The notes beneath the pieces are model-generated. The model searched no databases, was not told the DNA's origin, and worked only from the letters and a program-made list of their open reading frames with translations. A DNA stretch of 64,000 nucleotides from Methanohalophilus levihalophilus. Lineage in GTDB: Archaea > Halobacteriota > Methanosarcinia > Methanosarcinales > Methanosarcinaceae. Each line of letters begins with the position of its first letter. Within the stretch, counting starts at the first letter, position 1. The stretch spans positions 248,001-312,000 of the forward strand of contig NZ_JAGGLK010000003.1 in NCBI RefSeq assembly GCF_017874375.1, read 5' to 3'. Below are positions 1-12,525 of the stretch, piece by piece. The position numbers were made by a program, and so were the translations under genes.

Positions 1-23
1 TACACATTGTAGGTTTCAGAAGC

Positions 24-277
24 ATGAATGCAAATAAATTTTTCCTCATTTGCTTAATAAAACTATTATTTGTTTTCATGCAGGAGAGCTACTGGAATAT
101 GATTGCCAGAATTGCCATACTACAGGGGCATCCTATGATGGGAAGATGGACAACCTGCCAGGGATAAATGGTTCATGGGAATTCAGAGGCATTCAATGTG
201 AAGCATGCCATGCTACAGACAGTAAAGATGGATTGGAAGATGATGGTTATAGAGTTGTTATTACCAAGGATCTTTAA
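24..277 (+). pseudogene. Remnant of a secreted multiheme cytochrome c
   Basis: The frame at 50-277 encodes two c-type heme motifs, CQNCH and CEACH, about 30 residues apart, the second preceded by Gly-Ile-Gln as is common in large multiheme cytochromes. It opens with TTG in mid-domain and has no export signal of its own. In another frame, ATG 24 begins a short lysine-plus-hydrophobic stretch (about 20 residues) that looks like a signal peptide and runs into the cytochrome frame. I infer a decayed gene whose signal and heme part are now out of frame, probably after an internal deletion. Cytochromes c must be exported to receive heme, so the piece is unlikely to work. It ends in TAA. Chance resemblance of the signal part cannot be excluded. 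Confidence 0.5.
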
Positions 278-355
278 CATTTTCCTTCCTTCCTTTCATC
301 TGGCTCAAGTCAATATGTTTAATTGTTTTTAATTAAATGTTATTTTTGAGGATTT

Positions 356-1507
356 ATGTACGATGTAATTGTGGTCGGTGCGGGGCCAGCAGGTGCAACG
401 GCAGCACGGAAAACAGCAAAAGCAGGACTTAAGACACTGCTTCTTGAGAAGAGCAGACTTCCAAGGGTAAAAGTATGTGGCGGAGGGGTATCCATGCAAA
501 CAGTTTCAAATCTTGGAATCTGTATACCCGAGTCATTGATTGAGAGGAAATGTTTTGGTGCCAGAGTGAGATACAAGAATATGTGTCTCGAGTCTGAGGC
601 AAATGAGTGTCTTGCCCTGATGGTCTCAAGGGAAAAATTCGATAGTTATCTCACCATGTGTGCCGTAGAATAGGGTGCAGAACTCATGGAAAACGCCCAT
701 GTCAGATCAGTGGACGTCCAAAAAGGTTATGCTGTGGTAGAGACTGCAGAAGGTTCATTCAAGTCCAACGTTGTGATAGGTGCAGACGGTGTGCATAGTT
801 CATGTGCCAAAAATGTCAGGCAGAATTTTAGTAAGGAACAACTTGCGTTTTTGCTTGAGGCTGAGATCCATGCTTCAAATGAGTTTGTTGACGACTACAT
901 CTCAAACAAGTGTGAATTCCATTTTGGTGATGTCAAGAATGGATATGGATGGGTATTTCCAAAAGAAGAACATCTTTCGGTCGGTATTGGTGGAATAAGT
1001 TCCAGTGTATCGGACCCGATGGGCATCTTTTACAATTTTGTCGACAAACTCGGTTTTGATCACGTGAAGCCCAGAGGACATTTCCTGCCAATAGGAGGTG
1101 CTAAGAGGAGAACGTGTGCCGACCGTATAATGCTTGCAGGTGACGCTGCCGGTTATGTTGATTCTTTCCTAGGTGAGGGTATAGCCTATGCCATAAAATC
1201 AGGAAACTTTGCGGCGGAGACTGCAATCGAGGCGCATCAGAATAAGGATTTCTCGCAAAAGTTCCTCTCATCCTATCAGGGGAAATGCGACGATGACTTT
1301 GGAAGCAACCTGAAATACTCATTGATATTCTCTAGGTTATTTCATCGATATGATAATTTTTCTGCCCGGATACTGACAACTAACGAGTCCGTGCTGAACA
1401 AGTTCCTATATATTTCCACCGGAAGATTTGGGTATTTGTCATTCATGATGTGGGTGGCTCCTCGCCTTCCATACTATGCCTTAAAAGCACTTTTTTGGAG
1501 ACCTTGA
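356..1507 (+). CDS. Geranylgeranyl reductase family FAD protein, in-frame TAG
   Basis: The protein is an FAD-dependent oxidoreductase of the geranylgeranyl reductase type, which in archaea saturates isoprenoid chains of lipids or quinone-like carriers. The N-terminus has the dinucleotide-binding motif GAGPAGATAA (residues 8-17), the CGGGV motif follows near residue 41, and the GD of the second FAD motif (LAGDAAGYVDSFLGEGI) lies near residue 261. The start ATG 356 is preceded by GAGG. Codon 106 (671-673) is TAG; the frame then continues without a break to TGA 1507, giving 383 residues, the normal family length. The context around TAG (AVE-TAG-GAEL) is one where lysine or another residue is expected. 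Either TAG is read, for instance as pyrrolysine, or the gene is a very recent pseudogene. It stands alone between two AT-rich gaps. Confidence 0.8.
671..673 (+). other. In-frame amber codon inside the reductase gene
   Basis: The triplet TAG lies in the same frame as both halves of the gene. The first in-frame ATG after it (686) would only give a protein lacking the FAD-binding domain, so internal restart does not rescue function. Candidate pyrrolysine codon. Confidence 0.7.
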
Positions 1508-1852
1508 TCCAAAAACAGTTTTCTTGCTCATTTATCTGAAGCAACTACTTTACATGAAAGCCGGCATAAAAACCAATAAAAAAGATATACTTTTTCCAAT
1601 ATTGATTACTTTTGACTAGATGGGGATCTATATGATTGCTAGAATTTGAATAGTTCAATATTTTTTACATAGGCTAAGATTCATTTTTATTATGCACAAA
1701 CAGAAGCTCTAATCGATTTCCATGTTGCATGTAAATTTAAAAAATATGTTGTGGTAAAAGCTATAACAAATAAAAAATGAACTACTTATGGTCACAATTT
1801 TTGGGGGGTAACTAGCATAGATGGGATTACAGGGTATTATGGTTCTGGCCAT
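1508..1852. other. AT-rich intergenic region
   Basis: No convincing gene is visible. The stretch is strongly AT-rich. An A/T run near 1730-1748 (AAATTTAAAAAATATG) could be a promoter for the small gene at 1853. Just before that gene a stop-free frame encodes a Gly/Tyr-rich tail (GYYGSGHM) but has no normal start codon. Confidence 0.5.
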
Positions 1853-2041
1853 ATGGTCTTTGGATCAATTCTCTGGATTTTAATAATAATAGGTATCGTT
1901 TTGCTAGCGAAATGGCTTTCTGAGCAAAATAAAAAATCAGATGAAGAAACACTATCTGCACTAGATGTTGCAAAAATGAGATATGCCAATGGTGAAATAA
2001 CCGAAGAAGAATTTGAAGAGATGAAAAAACATCTTATTTAA
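1853..2041 (+). CDS. Small SHOCT-domain membrane protein
   Basis: This 62-residue protein has one N-terminal membrane helix (residues 3-19) and a C-terminal SHOCT-type helix pair (ALDVAKMRYANGEITEEEFE), the short domain usually found at the end of small membrane proteins and thought to mediate oligomerisation. The frame is open upstream back to TGA 1778 and encodes GYYGSGHM directly before the chosen Met, a run often seen in this family; no ATG, GTG or TTG start exists there, so the true N-terminus may be damaged or use another start. An ATG at 1821 lies in a different frame and soon stops. Function unknown. Confidence 0.65.
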   Translation: MVFGSILWILIIIGIVLLAKWLSEQNKKSDEETLSALDVAKMRYANGEITEEEFEEMKKHLI

Positions 2042-2045
2042 TTTT

Positions 2046-2076
2046 AGAGACAGTCCCACTACTAAAGGCCGTCTCT
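2046..2076 (+). terminator. Possible hairpin terminator after the SHOCT gene
   Basis: AGAGAC (2046-2051) pairs with GTCTCT (2071-2076) and a T-rich run follows. It sits five bases after the stop codon of the SHOCT gene. Confidence 0.35.
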
Positions 2077-2378
2077 TTGTTACATTAATGTACTTATGGG
2101 GATATTATATAGATAGCGAGCCTGCATAATCTGACACGTGCTCCACAAGCTATATTCCAAAGTTCAAGGTATTTGCTAGTCCAAGTAACACTTTTATCCA
2201 CTTAAAATAGGGACTGTATAAGCCGCTTGAATAGTCTCTGAACAGAGTTATAATAGGATAAAGTCTCCAATTTCCATCTGCAGCTTCATTTCAGCTTTTC
2301 CGCCAGTATCCTCAGATCATTAAACCAATCTTGCCAATCTCCGAGAACAAATGTTTAACAGCGTCGAATAATCTTACA
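2077..2378. other. Intergenic region with possible coding debris
   Basis: No intact gene. On the minus strand around 2285-2352 there is a short protein-like tail (DWQDWFNDLRILAEKLK then stop) without a start. It may be the end of a lost gene. The rest shows nothing I can name. Confidence 0.3.
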
Positions 2379-3986
2379 TTATTGTGACTTTTTCACAGTT
2401 ACCCAGAAAACACTCCCCTGCCCGGCTGGATTATTCTCGATGCCGACATTTCCTCCATGTAAATTAGTTATCCTTTTAACTATGGCAAGCCCCAATCCTG
2501 TTCCTTTAACGCCACTTTTGTCTACACGCTTGAAACGCTCGAACAGCTTCGGTTTATCCTCATCCGCAATCCCTTCCCCAAAGTCTGTCACTTTTATTTT
2601 CCAGTAATCTTCTGAATCAAGTACATCAATAATTATTTTACTTTTGGATGGGCTATATTTTATGGCATTGGATATCAAATTTGCAAATACTTCCTCTATC
2701 ATAGGATTTGCGTTTGCATTATATTCCTTCTTTGCTGCAAACTCAACAAGCATCTGCTTTTCTTCAAGTTGTGGTTTGAAGTTTTCTATAACTTCATTAA
2801 TAGTAGCTCTAATGTCCGTTTCTTCAAATTCAAGTTCTTCAACACTCTCCAATTTTGAAAATTTAGATGCAGATTCAATCATATCGATTAATTTTTCGTT
2901 GTTGCGTTTAATTGTTTGAAGAGCTTGATTTTTTTTCTCATCATTTTCCATATCGAGTAAAACATCAGTGAAACCCCTAACTATATTTGCAGGGTTGAGC
3001 AAGTCATGACGCATGATGTCGGTAAAGAGGTCTTTCATTTTTGTAAGCGAAACAAGTTCCTCGTTTGCCTTTGAGAGTTCTTTCGTGCTTTCTTTAACTG
3101 CAAGTGTCAGGCGCTTTTGGCGATTGATGGCCATATATGCCATCATAGTTAGCAGTACTACAATAATCAAACCTGCACTTTTGAATACAATAATTTTATC
3201 TTGAATTGTAGTATGCCCCGCTGTAGGAATTATTCCCAACTCCCAATTACCATCAGGTAGTTCGATGCTTTGTATAACAGGATCACTGTCATATACCTGA
3301 TTTCCTCCATAGAATACATTGCCCGTATCATCTCTTATTGCAATATTAGGATGACCCGGGATCATAAGTCCAGCTTCCTCAATAATAAGTGACATGTCCA
3401 CAGCCATGACTGCTAATCCCCAAAAAGTATCATTTATATAAATAGGCTTTATTGCAACCATACTGTGGATATCTGATTGCAATTCATATGGACCACTTAA
3501 GGCAATTTGGCGAGTTTGGATTGCTCGCTGCACATCGGTTCTTACATCAGGATGTTCATCATTAATGAGATCATAACCCAGCACATCTTCATTTCCAGAA
3601 ATCGGGTAGACATATTTTTGAATTCCAGCAGGAGCTACTGAAAAATAAAGAATTCCTTCAGTACTGGAATAGAGCCCTTCTGTGAAATCATCGAAATTAT
3701 TATCCAAGGATTCTTCTGATGGATCAAAGTGAACAAATGAGGCCAAGCCTTCCAGTATGGCAAACCGGTGGGTAAGGCTTGATGACAATGCATTTCCATG
3801 TAAAGATAAATCGATTGCTTCCTCTATTCTTTGCTCAGCAAGCAACTGTTCTTCATACCAGAGTCCAGCTTGCCACCAGACAAGAATAAGCAATATCAGA
3901 GCAAACAGTGCACCCAGCAGTGCGCTTCGATGCGGATTGAGAACTCTATTTTCTGGAATTGTAATGAGGCTAAGCAGAGTTTTCAT
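2379..3986 (-). CDS. CHASE-domain sensor histidine kinase
   Basis: A 535-residue membrane sensor kinase. A transmembrane helix (about 21-41) is followed by an extracytoplasmic CHASE-type ligand-binding domain (about 75-250), a second helix (about 268-286), a short coiled coil, and a kinase core: the H-box His327 in IMRHDLLNP, the N-box ANLISNAIKYSP, and ATP-lid motifs DFGEGI and GTGLGLAIVKRI. It would autophosphorylate on His327 in response to an external small molecule. No response regulator is encoded beside it, so its partner is elsewhere. It is preceded by more than 600 bases without a firm gene, and ends in TAA. Confidence 0.9.
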   Translation of the reverse strand: MKTLLSLITIPENRVLNPHRSALLGALFALILLILVWWQAGLWYEEQLLAEQRIEEAIDLSLHGNALSSSLTHRFAILEGLASFVHFDPSEESLDNNFDDFTEGLYSSTEGILYFSVAPAGIQKYVYPISGNEDVLGYDLINDEHPDVRTDVQRAIQTRQIALSGPYELQSDIHSMVAIKPIYINDTFWGLAVMAVDMSLIIEEAGLMIPGHPNIAIRDDTGNVFYGGNQVYDSDPVIQSIELPDGNWELGIIPTAGHTTIQDKIIVFKSAGLIIVVLLTMMAYMAINRQKRLTLAVKESTKELSKANEELVSLTKMKDLFTDIMRHDLLNPANIVRGFTDVLLDMENDEKKNQALQTIKRNNEKLIDMIESASKFSKLESVEELEFEETDIRATINEVIENFKPQLEEKQMLVEFAAKKEYNANANPMIEEVFANLISNAIKYSPSKSKIIIDVLDSEDYWKIKVTDFGEGIADEDKPKLFERFKRVDKSGVKGTGLGLAIVKRITNLHGGNVGIENNPAGQGSVFWVTVKKSQ

Positions 3987-4640
3987 TAGTTAAACTCCTT
4001 ATTTCAAATTCAATTTCTGGTACTGTTCTCTTTAATTCGATTATAAGTAAACCCTTTCCCATGAATAGGTGATTATGCGCTCTGAAATTAGTGAGCAGGT
4101 GGAACTTTAGTTATTCAATTGTCATTAGAAGTCAATGGTATGATGATAATTAATATTTCTGCTTTATGCTTTTGCTAGGGCTAAAATAGAAGGTTCGATT
4201 ACAAATAGCATGCTTTTTATGTGACCCTTCAGTTTTCAGAAGGGCGTTGTGTGCCTGCAACGCCTGCACAAGAACACGTATGTACTGCAACCTTGTAGAG
4301 TCGGATGATTGCTCCTTGAATTGCTTATATCTAGCCTTATATATAAGTTTTCCACGATCCATGATGAGATATCCAGTGAATTTGGAACGTTCAATATTTT
4401 CTACAGATCATATTTCATCACTTTGAAAAAATAACTGCTGTATAAATGGAAAATGAAATTAAGGTTTCGGAACCATATTTCTTGTTGCGATTGTTGCACC
4501 AATAATCTTGAACACCTTTGATGCTAGTATTTTTGTTATTGACCTATCGAGTTTGGGACTATAATTTTAATTGAAGTTGCAATCGCAAGTCTGTTTTAGA
4601 AATGATTCTTTCAAAAAGGATGTGAAATGTGTCGGGATAA
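3987..4640. other. Long intergenic region, one weak ORF
   Basis: About 650 AT-rich bases separate the sensor kinase from the mobile region. The only open frame of note is the 70-codon minus-strand ORF at 4150-4362, listed separately. I see no RNA gene or clear repeat. Confidence 0.5.
4150..4362 (-). CDS. Hypothetical 70-residue protein
   Basis: A short basic ORF (MDRGKLIYKARYKQFKEQSS at its start) with a plausible amphipathic helix in the middle. It matches nothing I recognise, has no clear ribosome-binding site and stands alone in an AT-rich gap. It may be real or chance. Confidence 0.25.
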   Translation of the reverse strand: MDRGKLIYKARYKQFKEQSSDSTRLQYIRVLVQALQAHNALLKTEGSHKKHAICNRTFYFSPSKSIKQKY

Positions 4641-5234
4641 TCAATAAACAATACTTGGAAGCACCATATACTTGTATGGTTCATATTCCCCTGCTGCAAT
4701 CTTTCTTTTAATTCCCTGAATGCGGATTCTATTATTTGTTTGCGAGCAGAATTTTTTCTTTATCGTTTCATTCAAGTGGAAGCCATTAAGCCAATTATTT
4801 TCAAAATATTTCAATCGCTTTACCAATCCTGCTGACAGCTTGTATTTTTTGATAGGTTTATTTACACCTTTCTTTTTTACATCCTTGACCAACATTTTTG
4901 GGTTGCGCCTTCTGTACCTCTTGCTTTTATCTTTATAGCCATTTGGTGGTGCGTATCGATTCAGAATATTATAGACGGCTCCAAGCTTGACTTCTGGCTT
5001 GCCGTTTTCTTTTCTCCATTCATTTACAAGTGTATGAATTTCTTGCCTTGTCCTATACTTGTTACCGGATTCATACATTATTTTGAAGACCAAAAATTTA
5101 CTAGCTCCAATTGTGGATCTAGTGTAGCAGTATACACACAATTCTTTATCTGGATCTTTTCCGTGTCCACATGCAGGACATATTGATATTTCTTCTTTTA
5201 TTGGTTCATGTTGGATTAGCTCGTAATTGTTCAA
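4641..5234 (-). CDS. Zinc-ribbon winged-helix-like protein of mobile region
   Basis: A 197-residue basic protein. Residues 19-36 form a four-cysteine zinc ribbon (CPAC...CVYC). The middle (about 50-95) reads like a helix-turn-helix (RTRQEIHTLVNEWRKE, then VKLGAVYNILNRY), followed by a very basic stretch rich in Lys and Arg (about 100-130). I do not recognise the family. A DNA-binding regulator or replication/transfer protein of the integrated element is the likely type of role, inferred only from these features and from its neighbours, a serine recombinase and an integrase. It ends in TGA and its base composition is AT-rich like the rest of the element. Confidence 0.65.
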   Translation of the reverse strand: MNNYELIQHEPIKEEISICPACGHGKDPDKELCVYCYTRSTIGASKFLVFKIMYESGNKYRTRQEIHTLVNEWRKENGKPEVKLGAVYNILNRYAPPNGYKDKSKRYRRRNPKMLVKDVKKKGVNKPIKKYKLSAGLVKRLKYFENNWLNGFHLNETIKKKFCSQTNNRIRIQGIKRKIAAGEYEPYKYMVLPSIVY

Positions 5235-5364
5235 TTATTCACCTCTTTTATTGTGTGTTTTACACTATTGTTTGAATTATCGCTATCAGTCGAATTTCTT
5301 ATGTTTACTCTTTAATTACATGTAGGCATGGATACATCTTCGATGTGACAGGTGTACGAGAAAC

Positions 5365-5463
5365 GAAATGATACATTTCTTTCGGGGTGGGTGTCGCCAT
5401 ATAGGGATAGTTTGAAGCCCTGAAACACATTCCCTATGTGAAGCCTATCACCATCCCTATATG
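5365..5463. repeat. Palindrome cluster beside the serine recombinase
   Basis: Three inverted repeats lie within 100 bases just after the recombinase gene: GAAATG 5365-5370 with CATTTC 5374-5379; CATATAGGGAT 5398-5408 with ATCCCTATATG 5453-5463; and CACAT 5426-5430 with ATGTG 5436-5440. GAAGCC also recurs as a direct repeat between the long arms. The set could be a recombination (res-like) site, an operator or a transcription terminator. Confidence 0.5.
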
Positions 5464-5471
5464 CATCAATT

Positions 5472-6161
5472 TCAGGCTTCAGCTTCTTCATATTGTTTTA
5501 GCTTGAATTCCATTGATTCTTCAAATTTGATCCATTTGTAATTTTCATATACATAACCTAGTTCATCAAGCCTTGATGTAATGGTATTAGGAGCAACACC
5601 AAAGTACTTTGAAATTGCAGTTGCTGATAACTTTTTATCAATCAATTCAATCAGCTTTTTTGAATCAATATCTTTTTTAGGTCTATGGCAAATTACACCA
5701 TTAGCAATTGCTTTTTCTCTTCCTTCTCTCATTCTTTCCGCAATCATGGATCTTTCGAATTCAGCAAAAGCACCCATAATTTGAAGCATTAATGTACCGG
5801 AAGGTGAAGAAGTATCGAAGGGTTGACTTATAGAAGCAAATTCAATATCTAAATCCTGAAGCTCTTTAACATGGAAGAGTAGATCAAGATTGGATCTCGC
5901 AAATCGGTCAATCTTGGTGACTATAACCATATCGAATTTCTTTTCTTTTGCTTCCTGCATCATTAATTCAAAAGCGGGTCGCTTAGTGTTCTTTCCCGAA
6001 TATCCAAAATCAACATATTTGTCAACAATTTCATATCCGCAACGGTTACAATATTCTTGTAATTGCTCTTCTTGGATTTTTGGCGATTCTTTGTGATTAT
6101 CCGTTGATGTCCTTATGTATAAACAGACATTTTTAATTATTTTTGTATTCATATAAAACAT
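5472..6161 (-). CDS. Serine recombinase (resolvase/invertase family)
   Basis: A 229-residue site-specific recombinase. The catalytic serine is in YIRTST (Ser19, or Ser16 if the second Met at 6152 is the start). The resolvase core follows with DFGYSGKNTKRPAFELMM, VTKIDRFARS and the long helix region GAFAEFERSMIAERMREGR, then a C-terminal helix-turn-helix (LSATAISKYFGVAPNTITSRL) that binds the crossover site. Such enzymes resolve or invert DNA through a 5'-phosphoserine link. A TATA-like run at 6174-6187 suggests a nearly leaderless transcript. The palindromes just downstream are a natural candidate for its target. It ends in TGA. Confidence 0.93.
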   Translation of the reverse strand: MFYMNTKIIKNVCLYIRTSTDNHKESPKIQEEQLQEYCNRCGYEIVDKYVDFGYSGKNTKRPAFELMMQEAKEKKFDMVIVTKIDRFARSNLDLLFHVKELQDLDIEFASISQPFDTSSPSGTLMLQIMGAFAEFERSMIAERMREGREKAIANGVICHRPKKDIDSKKLIELIDKKLSATAISKYFGVAPNTITSRLDELGYVYENYKWIKFEESMEFKLKQYEEAEA

Positions 6162-6366
6162 TTATATAAAAATGTGTATATATAAACATTAAGGTTGACT
6201 TGTTGATTTGAATATTTTGTTTGAGCTTTCTGCGTGACGATTTCTCCACCAAACACTATTGTAAGAAGTCTTGTAGTTGATCAGATGAATGGGCAAACGG
6301 AGCAAAACACAGTTCAAACTAAAAATATTTATAGTTTAAAATAAATTTTACTCATAAGTCTTCACT

Positions 6367-7122
6367 ATGTATAGACCAGAGAAAAAAATTATGAAAACCT
6401 ATCCAGACAATTTTCTGAAAAATCAGATACTAAATGCTGTTTATACCCTAAATGGATCTAATGCGCCCAGAGCTACTTCCAAGAATATACGCACCTTCAT
6501 CAAATACAATGGATCTAAATCCAACTTCAAATCAGAAATTTATGGTCTCAAGCGTCGTGGATATCTCAGTTTTTCCCATGAATCAAAGAATAAGAAGGTA
6601 AAGACGTATATCCTGACTAAAAAAGGAGATTTCCATCGATTAAATCCAGACTACTATCAAAAACTGAAAGCGGAAAGAATCGCTGCAACTGTAAACGACA
6701 TACTGAATGATGATAATAAATTTACAGCAGCTGTAGACAACGAAGTTGCAAACAGAATGGACATCATTGAAACGAATGTTGCAAATCTTTTGAGCAGTAA
6801 TGTGAATACAACCAATATAGGTAATGAACCAATTTCAGCGGCTGAAATGATCGTTGCCAATATAATCGCAAAGAAAGATGAAGAAATTCGTAATTTGAAT
6901 GCTAAATATTTCAGCAAAGCAAATCCAGGCACACTTGAAGATAAGGCAAGTGACAATAGCCAACAAATGCCTGACAAGCATAATGATGAAAAAAGAATGG
7001 AGAAACGACAGAATCTTGCTAACCACTATTATCAGAATCATTTATGGCTGGATCTACAATTCTTCCAGCTTTGGAAAAACATGGTACCAGTTTTGCTGAG
7101 TGGGCGTAAAGGAAGCTTATGA
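6367..7122 (+). CDS. Winged-helix protein of the mobile region, 3' end damaged
   Basis: The first 90 residues form a winged helix (NQILNAVYTLNGSNAPRATS, then EIYGLKRRGYLSFSHE and TYILTKKGDF), so this is probably a DNA-binding regulator of the element. The middle is helical and charged. The last 35 residues in this frame (after MEKRQNLA) look unlike a protein, while the other two frames become protein-like from about 7030 on, so a frameshift near 7020-7040 probably cut the original end. It is divergent from the recombinase gene, with a TATA-like stretch near 6328-6345. It ends in TGA. Confidence 0.55.
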   Translation: MYRPEKKIMKTYPDNFLKNQILNAVYTLNGSNAPRATSKNIRTFIKYNGSKSNFKSEIYGLKRRGYLSFSHESKNKKVKTYILTKKGDFHRLNPDYYQKLKAERIAATVNDILNDDNKFTAAVDNEVANRMDIIETNVANLLSSNVNTTNIGNEPISAAEMIVANIIAKKDEEIRNLNAKYFSKANPGTLEDKASDNSQQMPDKHNDEKRMEKRQNLANHYYQNHLWLDLQFFQLWKNMVPVLLSGRKGSL

Positions 7123-7410
7123 GATTCCGGTACTCAAAATGCAACCTCCCAGCAAAATAGAATTGGATGTTTTGGGAACAATTAATGCTACTGAAAATAA
7201 AAGTACAATTCACTTAGATCACTTGTGAAAAATGGCCTTAAAATGGAATACACAGGATCAAACCGAAATAAGTATTCTCAAATTATTAAAAAATTAGAAA
7301 CAAATGGATTTGTTTCAACCAACAGAAGTGGTCGTGAAAAAGGAATAAAATTAACTGATTCTGGAAAAGTAATAGCAGAAATTAGTGATATTCTGTTAAG
7401 TTCTAAATGA
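7044..7410 (+). pseudogene. Frameshifted C-terminal half of a winged-helix gene
   Basis: Protein-like sequence passes through three frames: from ATG 7044 (MAGSTILPALEKHGTSFAEW) to about 7100, then frame 2 (GVKEAYEIPVLKMQPPSKIE) to 7225, then frame 1 (KNGLKMEYTGSNRNKYSQII) to TGA 7410. The last part has the GFVSTNRSGREKGIKLTDSG pattern of a wing. Joining the pieces needs two single-base shifts. It is probably the rest of the gene that starts at 6367 or of a sister gene. The stops met here are TAA and TGA in shifted frames, unlike the clean TAG interruptions elsewhere. Confidence 0.55.
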
Positions 7411-7439
7411 ATAGAGATGATGGAGAATTTCAAACTCCA

Positions 7440-9038
7440 TCAATCCGCTTGTTTATACTTTTCATTGATTAATTGACGTTCATATTCCAATTGTTCAAGC
7501 TCGATTTTAAGATCATTCTTTTTGTTTTCAAGTGTTTTATATCCTCTCGAAATGCGATCTTCAAGTTTGCGCTTTTGTTGCTTGTATGTTAATTTATCCG
7601 CTAGAGATAGCATATCATTATTTTCAAGCTGATTTTCTACTTCTCGCAACTCATATTCATCACCATCAATTGATAGACTAAGTTCTTCAATGAATACGTT
7701 AGCTGCTGATTCCACCAAATTAATCTTCTTATCAAGGTATTCAATTTCCCTTTGATGTTCTGTATTCTTGTAGTGTTGTGCTTCAGCAGCAGCAGAAATT
7801 GTGACCCATTTCATACCCTTTAAGTATTCAAACATTGATATTTCTTCATCAAATTGAGTATAGAAATCAGCAGATTTTGCTGAATGTCCCATCCAGTAAT
7901 CTTTATAATCCTGTCTACTATCTGATTTATGCAACTGATTTGAAAAAAAACGCCTTAGATTATGCGACCTGAAGAACACATATCGATCTTCTTCACATAA
8001 TCCACAACCCTATGAAGCATCCTCAAAGAACCGATCCAATTCCTTTGGTTCAAATTTACGGAATCTAGTATCAGGTGAAATTTGCTTTTTCTTAACACGT
8101 CTTCCTTTAACACCACTTTTATTTTTAACTTCATACATTCTTGTATATTCACCATCAGCAACATATTTCAGAAATTCATTTCGTGGTTCAGGTCTACAAA
8201 ATAATGCATCATCTTCAGAATAGATATATTGTTTCTTTATATTATTTGATAAATCATCGTAATCAATACCATAGCCCATACGGTATTCCAAATAATCAAT
8301 GATTGCTTCACAAGCTTCTGTTGAAATATATGTATGATGTTTAACATGTGCCTTTTTCGGCTTATTTTTCATTTTCTGTCGTATAAATTCAATTTTGCAG
8401 ATTTTATATTTTGGATCATACCCTTCTCTGAATTTTCGAACAGTCAATTGTGTTATATCAACTTTGGATAATCCACTTGATAATTCACACAATGCAAACG
8501 CTTTTAGGAATTTTTGACATTCACCTAAACCTAATCGGATTTCATCTTTTGATAAGAAATATGTGTTATCTACTTCTTCTATTTCTTCACCATCATCATC
8601 TAATATTCTTGGTGAATATGCTTTTGGATCGATAATCATTCCATTTGATATGTAGAATGCTTTAATATTCGACAATATTTGTGCCTGTGTAGATGATTTA
8701 TAATTGTAAAAAATATGATTAACTATTCCATTCATGTGTTTGGGCAATGATCTTGCGTATGCTGGAAGATCAGCATTACGTTGTTCTCTAGTTCCCTAAT
8801 CAATAAGTTGTTGTGGCATTAAGGTATCGTCACCATATTCATTTCGAAGAAAATGAATGTAAATACCCATTGCTTTTTGTGCATTCTTTTTTGTGGAAGC
8901 TGCTTTTCCACTTAATCTTGCATCAAACCAATGAATAACAGCTTCATCATTTTTAAATTCCTTAATTATTGGTGAGAATTTAAACTGGGGTTTCTTATTA
9001 TTTTCACTTTCATTGCTTTTGTTGCTCATTTTGTCCAC
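7440..9038 (-). CDS. Tyrosine recombinase/integrase with two in-frame TAG codons
   Basis: One frame runs from GTG 9038 (or ATG 9029) to TGA 7440 over 533 codons, interrupted only by TAG at codon 81 (8798-8796) and codon 343 (8012-8010). Residues 1-80 carry a core-binding-like domain (SGKAASTKKNAQKAMGIYIH). The catalytic part has SSGLSKVDITQL at the first box, KHHTYIS, then His359-x-x-Arg362 in RSHNLRRFF, Gly-His385 and Tyr393 in ADFYTQF. A long coiled-coil tail (about 400-532) follows. The usual first-box arginine is replaced by Ser-Lys. The second TAG falls between two catalytic boxes, so termination there would give a dead enzyme. It would integrate the element into the chromosome. Confidence 0.8.
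8010..8012 (-). other. Second in-frame amber codon of the integrase
   Basis: TAG at codon 343, in the same frame as the upstream catalytic part and the downstream His-x-x-Arg and Tyr boxes. Ten sense codons separate it from the first downstream start-like codon. Confidence 0.7.
8796..8798 (-). other. First in-frame amber codon of the integrase
   Basis: TAG at codon 81, between the N-terminal core-binding region and the catalytic domain, with the frame continuing unbroken on both sides. Confidence 0.7.
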
Positions 9039-9170
9039 TCTCTAAATTTGATAGCAACCAAAGTTTCTAAGAAGTTCAGGTCATAGCCACTAAACCACAG
9101 CCGCAAATAGAAAAAACGGATTGCTGGGATGCAACTACACATCCTGCATTCCTCATTATAGACCTTGGAG

Positions 9171-9227: not shown

Positions 9228-11183
9228 TTAGTTTTTGCAGCTCCTGTCCTCACCTTCACTCGTTAGATCAGAATTTCTTTCTTCTGCACTTTTTATAATT
9301 CGATCAAGCATATCCGGGTAAGTGATATTCGCAAAAGCAGCCATTTTCGCAAGATGTCCATCCCAACACCAGCCCGGGTTAGGATTAACTTCCAGCAGTT
9401 TCGGATTCCCCCTGGCATCAAGTCTCCAGTCGAATCTCGCATAATCCCTGCATTCCAGCCTTGAGAATAATTTCAGGCTGCATTCGACAATGGTTTCTTC
9501 CACATCTGCAGAAAGGTTTGCAGGAACCGATTTGATGTTCCAGTAAGGTGAATCTGGCTTCCATTTTGCTTCATAGCCGCAAATTTTCACAAGATCATCC
9601 GGCAGGGCAGAGTAATCTTCCTCAGAGATGGGCAACACTGTGTACTTTTCCGGCGGTGTTCCGATTATCCCCATACTCAGATCCTTCCCTGTCAAAAACT
9701 CTTCCACAAGAATCGGTTTATCGTATCCCAGCCCTTCACGGATGGCATAAATTGCCCTTACGACTTCGTCATGTGTATAACATACACTGTTCCTGTTAAG
9801 CCCAAAACTGGAATCTCCAAAATTGGGTTTTACTATGACGGGGAAATCCATTGTAAGTTCAAACAAAGTATCGTCGGGTTTTACCATCAGGCCCTCGGGT
9901 ACAGGTACTCCCAACTCGCGTGCAATACCTCTTACAAGAGATTTATCGTAGCAGTATGCAAGACATTGTGGTCCGGAACCGGTATATGGAATATCCATCA
10001 TTTCCAGAATTGCCGGAACATGTAGCTCTTTGCGTGGATCGTTTGCATATCCCTCATCACAGAGATTCAGCACAATATCAGTTTTTGGGGATACTCTGGC
10101 TAGATCTGTTATGAGAGTATTGTGATTGGAAAGATAGCTGAACTCATAGCCTTCTATTTCCCTCAATGCGCCCTTGAGACAATCAATGGTGTAGAAATCA
10201 TCGTCGTCAAAAATGCCTGAAGGTTTAAGAGGATCTGCTTTTGCAGGATCTCCAAGGAGGACTGTAACTTTCTTTGCTTTGGCTTTGTTTTTGCTCCTGA
10301 CAGGAGTCCATTCCTTCCTTATCGTTGCAGCCACAATGATGCGCTTTTCCATCATTCCAAGATCCTGGCCTCTTCTGGAATTTGATCCTACCTCTCCCAC
10401 AAGCTCGACGTTTGTAAAACCTGCATTCTCAAGTAGTTCCGTCAATGATTTCACAGTGTAGAGGCGTTCGGCATAAAACTGGTCTGCAACAACGCCTTTC
10501 TTGTCATCAACGATTACTTCCCTGGAGATGAGTTTCTGTCCGTCAATGGAAAGTGAACGCTCGCGGCAAACAAAACTGTTCTTATCTATCCACTCCCATG
10601 AACGTGGCTGGAAATGTTCTTTCAGATATGATCCGTCTGAAACATCCAGAAGCAATTTTCCATGCGGTTTAAGAATGCGTTTTGCCTCATTAAGAACTCT
10701 CAAATCTTCTTCAGGGGTTTCAAAGTAGCCAAAACTGTTCCCAAGGATCATCAAGCAACCAAAAGAATCAGGCGCATAGGGTGTTTTCCGTGCATCACCT
10801 TCACGAAATCTTACATGCAGGTTTTCTTTCCGGGCTTTTGTTTTTGCTCTCTGGATAAGGTAACGTGATCTGTCCAGTCCTTCTACATTTTTATATCCGC
10901 GCCGGACAAGTTCAAGGGTATGGCGTCCCTGCCCGCAGCAGAGATCCACTATCCTTTCATTCTGATCAAGCTTGAGAGCTGAAACAAATAAATCAATTTC
11001 ATCCTTCGTTATATTTTCATCATCTACGACGTCTGCATCTGTCTTCAGGTACAACGAGTTGAAAATATGTCTCCACCAGTCCGGACGCACATGTTCTTCC
11101 AGATGCGAGACCGGGCCTAAAGTCCTTTGGGCTGTGTTATGTCGTGAATTCTCACGACACTCGGAGATTCCGGGCTTTTTCAT
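9228..11183 (-). CDS. Methyltransferase / ATP-grasp ligase fusion
   Basis: A 651-residue protein joins two enzymes. Residues about 30-290 are a class I SAM-dependent methyltransferase, with the SAM motif VDLCCGQGRHTLEL near 79-92 and DARKTPYAPDSF after it. Residues about 305-635 resemble D-alanine-D-alanine ligase: LLGDPAKADPL at the start, YTGSGPQCLAYCYDKSLV, the ATP-grasp lid VIVKPNFGDSSFGLNR, and the metal-binding RFDWRLDARGNPKLLEVNPN. The pair should methylate a small molecule or peptide and make an amide bond by an acyl-phosphate intermediate; the substrate cannot be read from the sequence. Methanogens without murein have no need for D-Ala-D-Ala, so another product is likely. SepCysS lies upstream but a strong terminator separates them. 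Confidence 0.8.
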   Translation of the reverse strand: MKKPGISECRENSRHNTAQRTLGPVSHLEEHVRPDWWRHIFNSLYLKTDADVVDDENITKDEIDLFVSALKLDQNERIVDLCCGQGRHTLELVRRGYKNVEGLDRSRYLIQRAKTKARKENLHVRFREGDARKTPYAPDSFGCLMILGNSFGYFETPEEDLRVLNEAKRILKPHGKLLLDVSDGSYLKEHFQPRSWEWIDKNSFVCRERSLSIDGQKLISREVIVDDKKGVVADQFYAERLYTVKSLTELLENAGFTNVELVGEVGSNSRRGQDLGMMEKRIIVAATIRKEWTPVRSKNKAKAKKVTVLLGDPAKADPLKPSGIFDDDDFYTIDCLKGALREIEGYEFSYLSNHNTLITDLARVSPKTDIVLNLCDEGYANDPRKELHVPAILEMMDIPYTGSGPQCLAYCYDKSLVRGIARELGVPVPEGLMVKPDDTLFELTMDFPVIVKPNFGDSSFGLNRNSVCYTHDEVVRAIYAIREGLGYDKPILVEEFLTGKDLSMGIIGTPPEKYTVLPISEEDYSALPDDLVKICGYEAKWKPDSPYWNIKSVPANLSADVEETIVECSLKLFSRLECRDYARFDWRLDARGNPKLLEVNPNPGWCWDGHLAKMAAFANITYPDMLDRIIKSAEERNSDLTSEGEDRSCKN

Positions 11184-11355: not shown

Positions 11356-12525
<1,170 letters not shown>

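Follow-up and report, generated by a model that had tools for sequence, protein, structure and literature searches.

As far as the sequence allows a judgement, the gene at 7440-9038 is most probably the integrase gene of an integrative element of 27.8 kb, carried by a host that reads TAG as pyrrolysine, and its two internal TAG codons would have drifted in as ordinary sense codons. Positions are those of the window, i.e. the whole 64,000-nucleotide stretch of Methanohalophilus levihalophilus DNA that was analysed, unless a contig or locus is named.

Integrase gene and predicted protein

7440-9038, minus strand: tyrosine integrase gene of 532 codons, from a GTG start to a TGA stop
8796-8798, minus strand: in-frame TAG, codon 81; the column is mostly Glu across integrase homologues, and GAG to TAG is one change
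8010-8012, minus strand: codon 343, the second in-frame TAG, which precedes the H-x-x-R, GH and Tyr motifs; the column is variable

The frame is read downward through the window, from 9038 to 7440. A scan of its 532 codons found no TAA, no TGA and no frameshift, the TAGs at codons 81 and 343 being the only internal stops, as the preliminary description of this DNA had reported. Under translation table 11 the gene is divided into three pieces of 80, 245 and 179 amino acids. The H-x-x-R, GH and Tyr motifs are all situated downstream of TAG343, which bears out the earlier statement that the catalytic Tyr is lost without readthrough. At third positions GC is low throughout, with 0.24, 0.18 and 0.26 in the three pieces (first positions 0.43, 0.43 and 0.49), showing that the coding character is continuous through both TAGs.

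Searches of Pfam, PHROGs and NCBIfam gave no match to the integrase at E 0.001, and its family membership rests on genome search, profile search and fold. The genome search revealed intact distant relatives in other Methanosarcinaceae, and the blastp alignment to an intact relative covers query residues 27-391. The family profile matches the integrase in one stretch across both TAGs (E 2e-134, the integrase itself being part of the alignment), and a profile match to XerA was obtained with E 2e-15. The AlphaFold2 model (mean pLDDT 83) was matched by Foldseek to Cre, archaeal Xer and Tn1549 Int with probability 1.00 each, at whole-chain TM-scores of about 0.3 when normalised to the query and 0.5 when normalised to the target; the modelled protein is a tyrosine recombinase in its predicted fold. 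No close homologue was found, and no relative was detected by degenerate-pattern scans of the genome and viral contigs or by tblastn against phages and plasmids.

In an alignment of 30 sequences, H358, R361, H384 and Y392 (alignment numbering) are invariant or nearly so, as are R219, K221 and R356. Box I of the integrase reads SSGL-S-K, with Ser at the canonical Arg column when aligned to XerA, and small residues occupy this column family-wide in the alignment of the 30 sequences to XerA. The claim that all catalytic boxes are present is thus correct in part: HxxR, GH and Tyr are kept, and the canonical box-I Arg appears to be absent. The sequences form a large archaeal integrase family apparently lacking this Arg and retaining R219, K221 and R356.

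Integrative element and split tRNA gene

1-9075, strand not given: integrase-end part of the element; the remainder lies left of the window (C3:229252-248000)
9037-9073, minus strand: inverted-repeat arm adjoining the core, similar in reverse complement to its counterpart at the opposite end of the element
9076-9104, minus strand: left junction, made up of the first 29 nt of the host tRNA-Gly(CCC) gene; the last 8 of them (9076-9083) are the core TGACCTGA
C3:229244-229251: right-junction core TGACCTGA, 8 nt
C3:229343-229417 (L020:1343-1417): element-borne divergent tRNA-Gly(CCC), complete and with its CCA encoded, roughly 90 bp inward of the right end
356-1507, plus strand: geranylgeranyl-reductase-family oxidoreductase, cargo, with an in-frame TAG at codon 106 (671-673)
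2379-3986, minus strand: histidine kinase, cargo
4641-5234, minus strand: element gene, function not assigned
5472-6161, minus strand: serine resolvase of the element
6367-7122, plus strand: predicted winged-helix-like protein with a homologue on the element of a second genome of the genus (G003)
7225-7410, plus strand: 61-aa frame resembling the latter half of a winged-helix domain; a frameshift is probable, as judged from the frames
11356-12513, minus strand: SepCysS-like host gene, which anchors the empty site in relatives

The element has a length of 27,824 bp, carries the integrase gene at one end, and is situated inside the host tRNA-Gly(CCC) gene, which it splits at the 8-nt core. The 3' half of this gene, joined to the core, is found on contig C3 at about 229,201-229,243, 27.8 kb from the 5' half. 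Inverted arms of about 37 nt flank the core sides, with a local alignment of about 38 columns whose score is reached by about 1 in 2000 shuffles. When the flanks are rejoined, 72 nt match the tRNA-Gly(CCC) of four relatives without a difference, and ARAGORN recognises an intact tRNA-Gly(CCC). At both junctions as present ARAGORN found no tRNA, and the insertion does not regenerate its target. In six relatives an intact tRNA-Gly(CCC) is located just downstream of SepCysS and the element is absent from the site. The core repeat and the inverted arms beside the integrase gene suggest that the insertion was made by this integrase.

Among the 41 host tRNA matches no second Gly(CCC) tRNA was found besides the element-borne copy; ARAGORN gave most of them an anticodon, and the unassigned ones, at 83-113 nt, are longer than a Gly tRNA. 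The element-borne tRNA may therefore replace the broken host tRNA. For the element of G003, no tRNA was found in the 20 kb searched.

The cargo includes a P4-type primase, an AarF-like kinase, a multihaem cytochrome, a P-type ATPase, an amino-acid permease, the histidine kinase, the resolvase and the TAG-bearing reductase; apart from this reductase, no in-frame TAG was found in the primase, the resolvase or other long genes of the element. The neighbouring winged-helix genes had been described as shifted. The gene at 6367-7122 aligns nearly end to end with its G003 homologue and is not obviously shifted, while a shift at about 7120-7230 is supported, and the sequence there looks decayed.

Between SepCysS and the split tRNA, 9228-11183 encodes a 651-aa protein in which a methyltransferase is fused to a D-Ala-D-Ala-ligase-like ATP-grasp domain (MT-Ddl), with no full-length match in the seven congeners searched. 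This gene was considered as part of the element and rejected owing to its position outside the left junction.

Use of TAG in the host genome

The host genome (2.1 Mb in 5 contigs) carries pylS, a tRNA-Pyl with anticodon CTA (pylT) and adjacent pylB, pylC and pylD frames, the last three named by sequence, together with one full-length copy of aRF1. Coding-potential gene calls over 808 kb ended in TAA 338 times, in TGA 302 times and in TAG 9 times. Five of these nine TAG ends are internal to longer coding frames, one belongs to pylB, and three are followed by TAA or TGA at most 5 codons on, leaving 4 of 649 genes plausibly terminated by TAG. The five interrupted frames, named by sequence inspection, are dimethylamine and trimethylamine methyltransferases, PEP synthase, a repeat protein and a lipoprotein-like protein. 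Six congeners together have 3 TAG ends in 386 gene calls, one of which has a 256-codon coding extension, and in genus g3 none of 203 ends is a TAG without a coding extension. TAG ends make up 8-10% in the g5 genomes and 3 of 13 in a pylS-negative genome.

The PEP synthase gene (L035:15208-17616, contig C1) has an in-frame TAG451 with about 85% identity to relatives on either side, at a column that is Thr in four congeners. Its dN/dS is 0.03-0.05 before and after the TAG alike; dS is saturated, so that the ratio reflects long-term constraint.

Judged on these counts, TAG is an ordinary sense codon in this host, as has been argued for Ca. Methanomethylophilus alvus (PMC4153887). Since TAG rarely serves as a stop in the lineage, the integrase TAGs are almost certainly read as pyrrolysine by the host: tRNA-Pyl would insert it at codons 81 and 343, yielding a full-length recombinase of 532 amino acids. 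With TAG as a pyrrolysine codon the integrase would depend on pyrrolysine. The mobile element had been proposed to be written in, or dependent on, such a code; TAG is very probably pyrrolysine and the full-length integrase needs readthrough, but the code is the host's. A TAG code private to the element was rejected, since the host and its genus barely terminate with TAG and carry Pyl-type TAGs in ordinary genes. The predicted failure in hosts that stop at TAG is supported, as such a host would make no catalytic domain.

These results indicate that in some methanogens TAG is apparently close to a full sense codon, in which case standard gene calling splits real genes there, and mobile DNA adapted to TAG-sense hosts would be restricted to such hosts. 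No paper on genome-wide reassignment of TAG to pyrrolysine in Methanosarcinaceae was found in the literature searched; reportedly, such a reassignment was described in 2025.

Two further observations concern TAG in other genomes. A geranylgeranyl-reductase-family gene (G002:C14:16185-17126) has two in-frame TAGs. In two congeners pylB (L024:8243-9298 and L144:5689-6750) ends in TAG and has a 39-codon open extension overlapping the pylC start in another frame; a pylB ending in TAG has already been described for relatives (PMC2933860).

TAG codons in related integrases and their origin

The integrase of G003 is the only other family member found in the genus. Its 535 codons include two TAGs but neither TAA nor TGA, one TAG column being Lys-rich and the other Tyr-rich, whereas those of the window integrase are Glu-rich and variable. 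The integrase of G123, from genus g3, has one TAG, at the column of the first TAG of the G003 integrase. TAG-bearing members of the family are confined to two TAG-depleted, pylS-positive genera, where they account for 3 of 9 near-complete genes vs 0 of 50 in other pylS-positive genomes, counting by hand the matches that span roughly 300 model positions or more. The preliminary description had proposed looking for TAG at the same columns in homologues, and sense codons were seen at both: Glu predominates at the first, and the second is variable. Neither TAG is therefore a conserved functional pyrrolysine. Sense codons in homologues together with immobility had been named as what would contradict a pyrrolysine-dependent integrase; the sense codons are there, but the element has clean ends and is missing from this site in six relatives.

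Broken integrase remnants in two g3 species (L083:4414-5529 and L084:7619-8266) have a TAG at a common column (GIOMSA). In G003 a tandem duplication of about 750 bp is located between the resolvase and the TAG-bearing integrase (L080:6515-6996 and 7159-7742).

The TAGs most likely arose by single-base drift, e.g. GAG to TAG, at tolerant positions of a fast-evolving and little-expressed gene after TAG had become a safe sense codon. An unlikely alternative is that the element is immobilised and its integrase is decaying, the TAGs being early nonsense mutations that are TAG by chance. The probable split of the neighbouring winged-helix frame would fit such decay, as would the clearly broken pieces of related integrases that carry TAG in G123 and G124. 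So would the TAG density: the two integrases have 4 TAGs in 1,067 codons, a higher density than in the remaining genome or in the other genes of both elements (Fisher P ~0.001, with approximate codon totals and a test chosen after the data were seen). However, 532 codons without TAA, TGA or frameshift and the retained HxxR, GH and Tyr argue against decay, and a change to TAG does not count as ordinary nonsense in this genome. A random nonsense change from the integrase codons is expected to give TAG about 24% of the time, so the two TAGs out of two stops in this gene are weak evidence taken alone (P ~0.06). Pooling both integrases of the genus, which repeat the pattern, gives four of four (P ~0.003), and adding the G123 integrase gives five of five over three genes (P ~0.001), against a nonsense-only expectation of TAG in 22-43% of events.

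The TAG density also bears on the reading, less probable still, that the TAGs were retained to couple integrase production to the pyrrolysine supply and hence to growth on methylamines. The enrichment over the other genes of the two elements, although post hoc, and the position of both TAGs upstream of the catalytic Tyr would agree with gating. Against it, the integrases of the genus have their TAGs at different columns, where nearly all homologues have sense codons, most integrases of g3, a TAG-depleted genus, are without TAG, and a codon that is read in housekeeping genes too makes a poor switch. A regulatory switch is possible but unsupported. Plain drift must invoke low constraint to account for the excess of TAG in the integrases, and low constraint is its simplest reason. 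Sequencing or assembly error at both TAGs is highly improbable: it needs two independent substitutions, both to TAG and none to TAA or TGA, while the pattern is repeated in another genome and in-frame TAGs recur in conserved genes of the host. Drift of TAG as a sense codon therefore remains the preferred reading.

It is conceivable, but doubtful, that the element is bound to its host twice, by an integrase that needs TAG to be pyrrolysine (and perhaps acts only while methylamine metabolism supplies it) and, after breaking the host tRNA-Gly(CCC) gene, by bringing the sole working copy, so that losing the element without precise excision would be costly.

Comparison with known systems

Pyl-TAG genes outside methylamine metabolism are already known. 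Like the integrase described here, the amber transposase family of Methanosarcina acetivorans and M. mazei is a mobile gene with an in-frame TAG in Pyl-decoding Methanosarcinaceae (PMC2933860, PMC3639795), and its relatives elsewhere have sense codons, as do the homologues of the window integrase (PMC2933860). The transposase TAG is conserved, in contrast to the two non-conserved TAGs of this tyrosine integrase in a genome where TAG hardly terminates. In Ca. M. alvus, TAG accounts for about 1.6% of stops, 16 Pyl proteins besides methyltransferases are predicted, including Cas1, and the authors regard an in-frame amber there as a stable mutation (PMC4153887). That archaeon belongs to a different order, and the sections considered here describe no integrase-bearing element (PMC4153887).

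In its position the element resembles those placed in tRNA genes by archaeal tyrosine integrases (PMC8371274) and the tRNA-gene islands catalogued by Islander (PMC4383910), with the integrase adjoining an att site inside a tRNA gene, between its halves. Known islands of this kind mend the target from their own att fragment (PMC8371274, PMC4383910). Here the target stays split at an 8-nt core, and the element brings a complete, divergent tRNA-Gly(CCC). The proposed replacement of the target by a whole carried tRNA is a variant without precedent in the literature surveyed and, if confirmed, another route into tRNA genes, in which a whole spare is brought and the target is not mended. At the disrupted tRNA-Thr locus of Caldiarchaeum, too, a mobile element accompanies a 5' tRNA fragment, with another, complete tRNA close by (PMC3293823). 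That locus is about 1.8 kb long, metagenomic and a case of intron gain, whereas the 28-kb element described here is flanked by both halves of one tRNA gene (PMC3293823).
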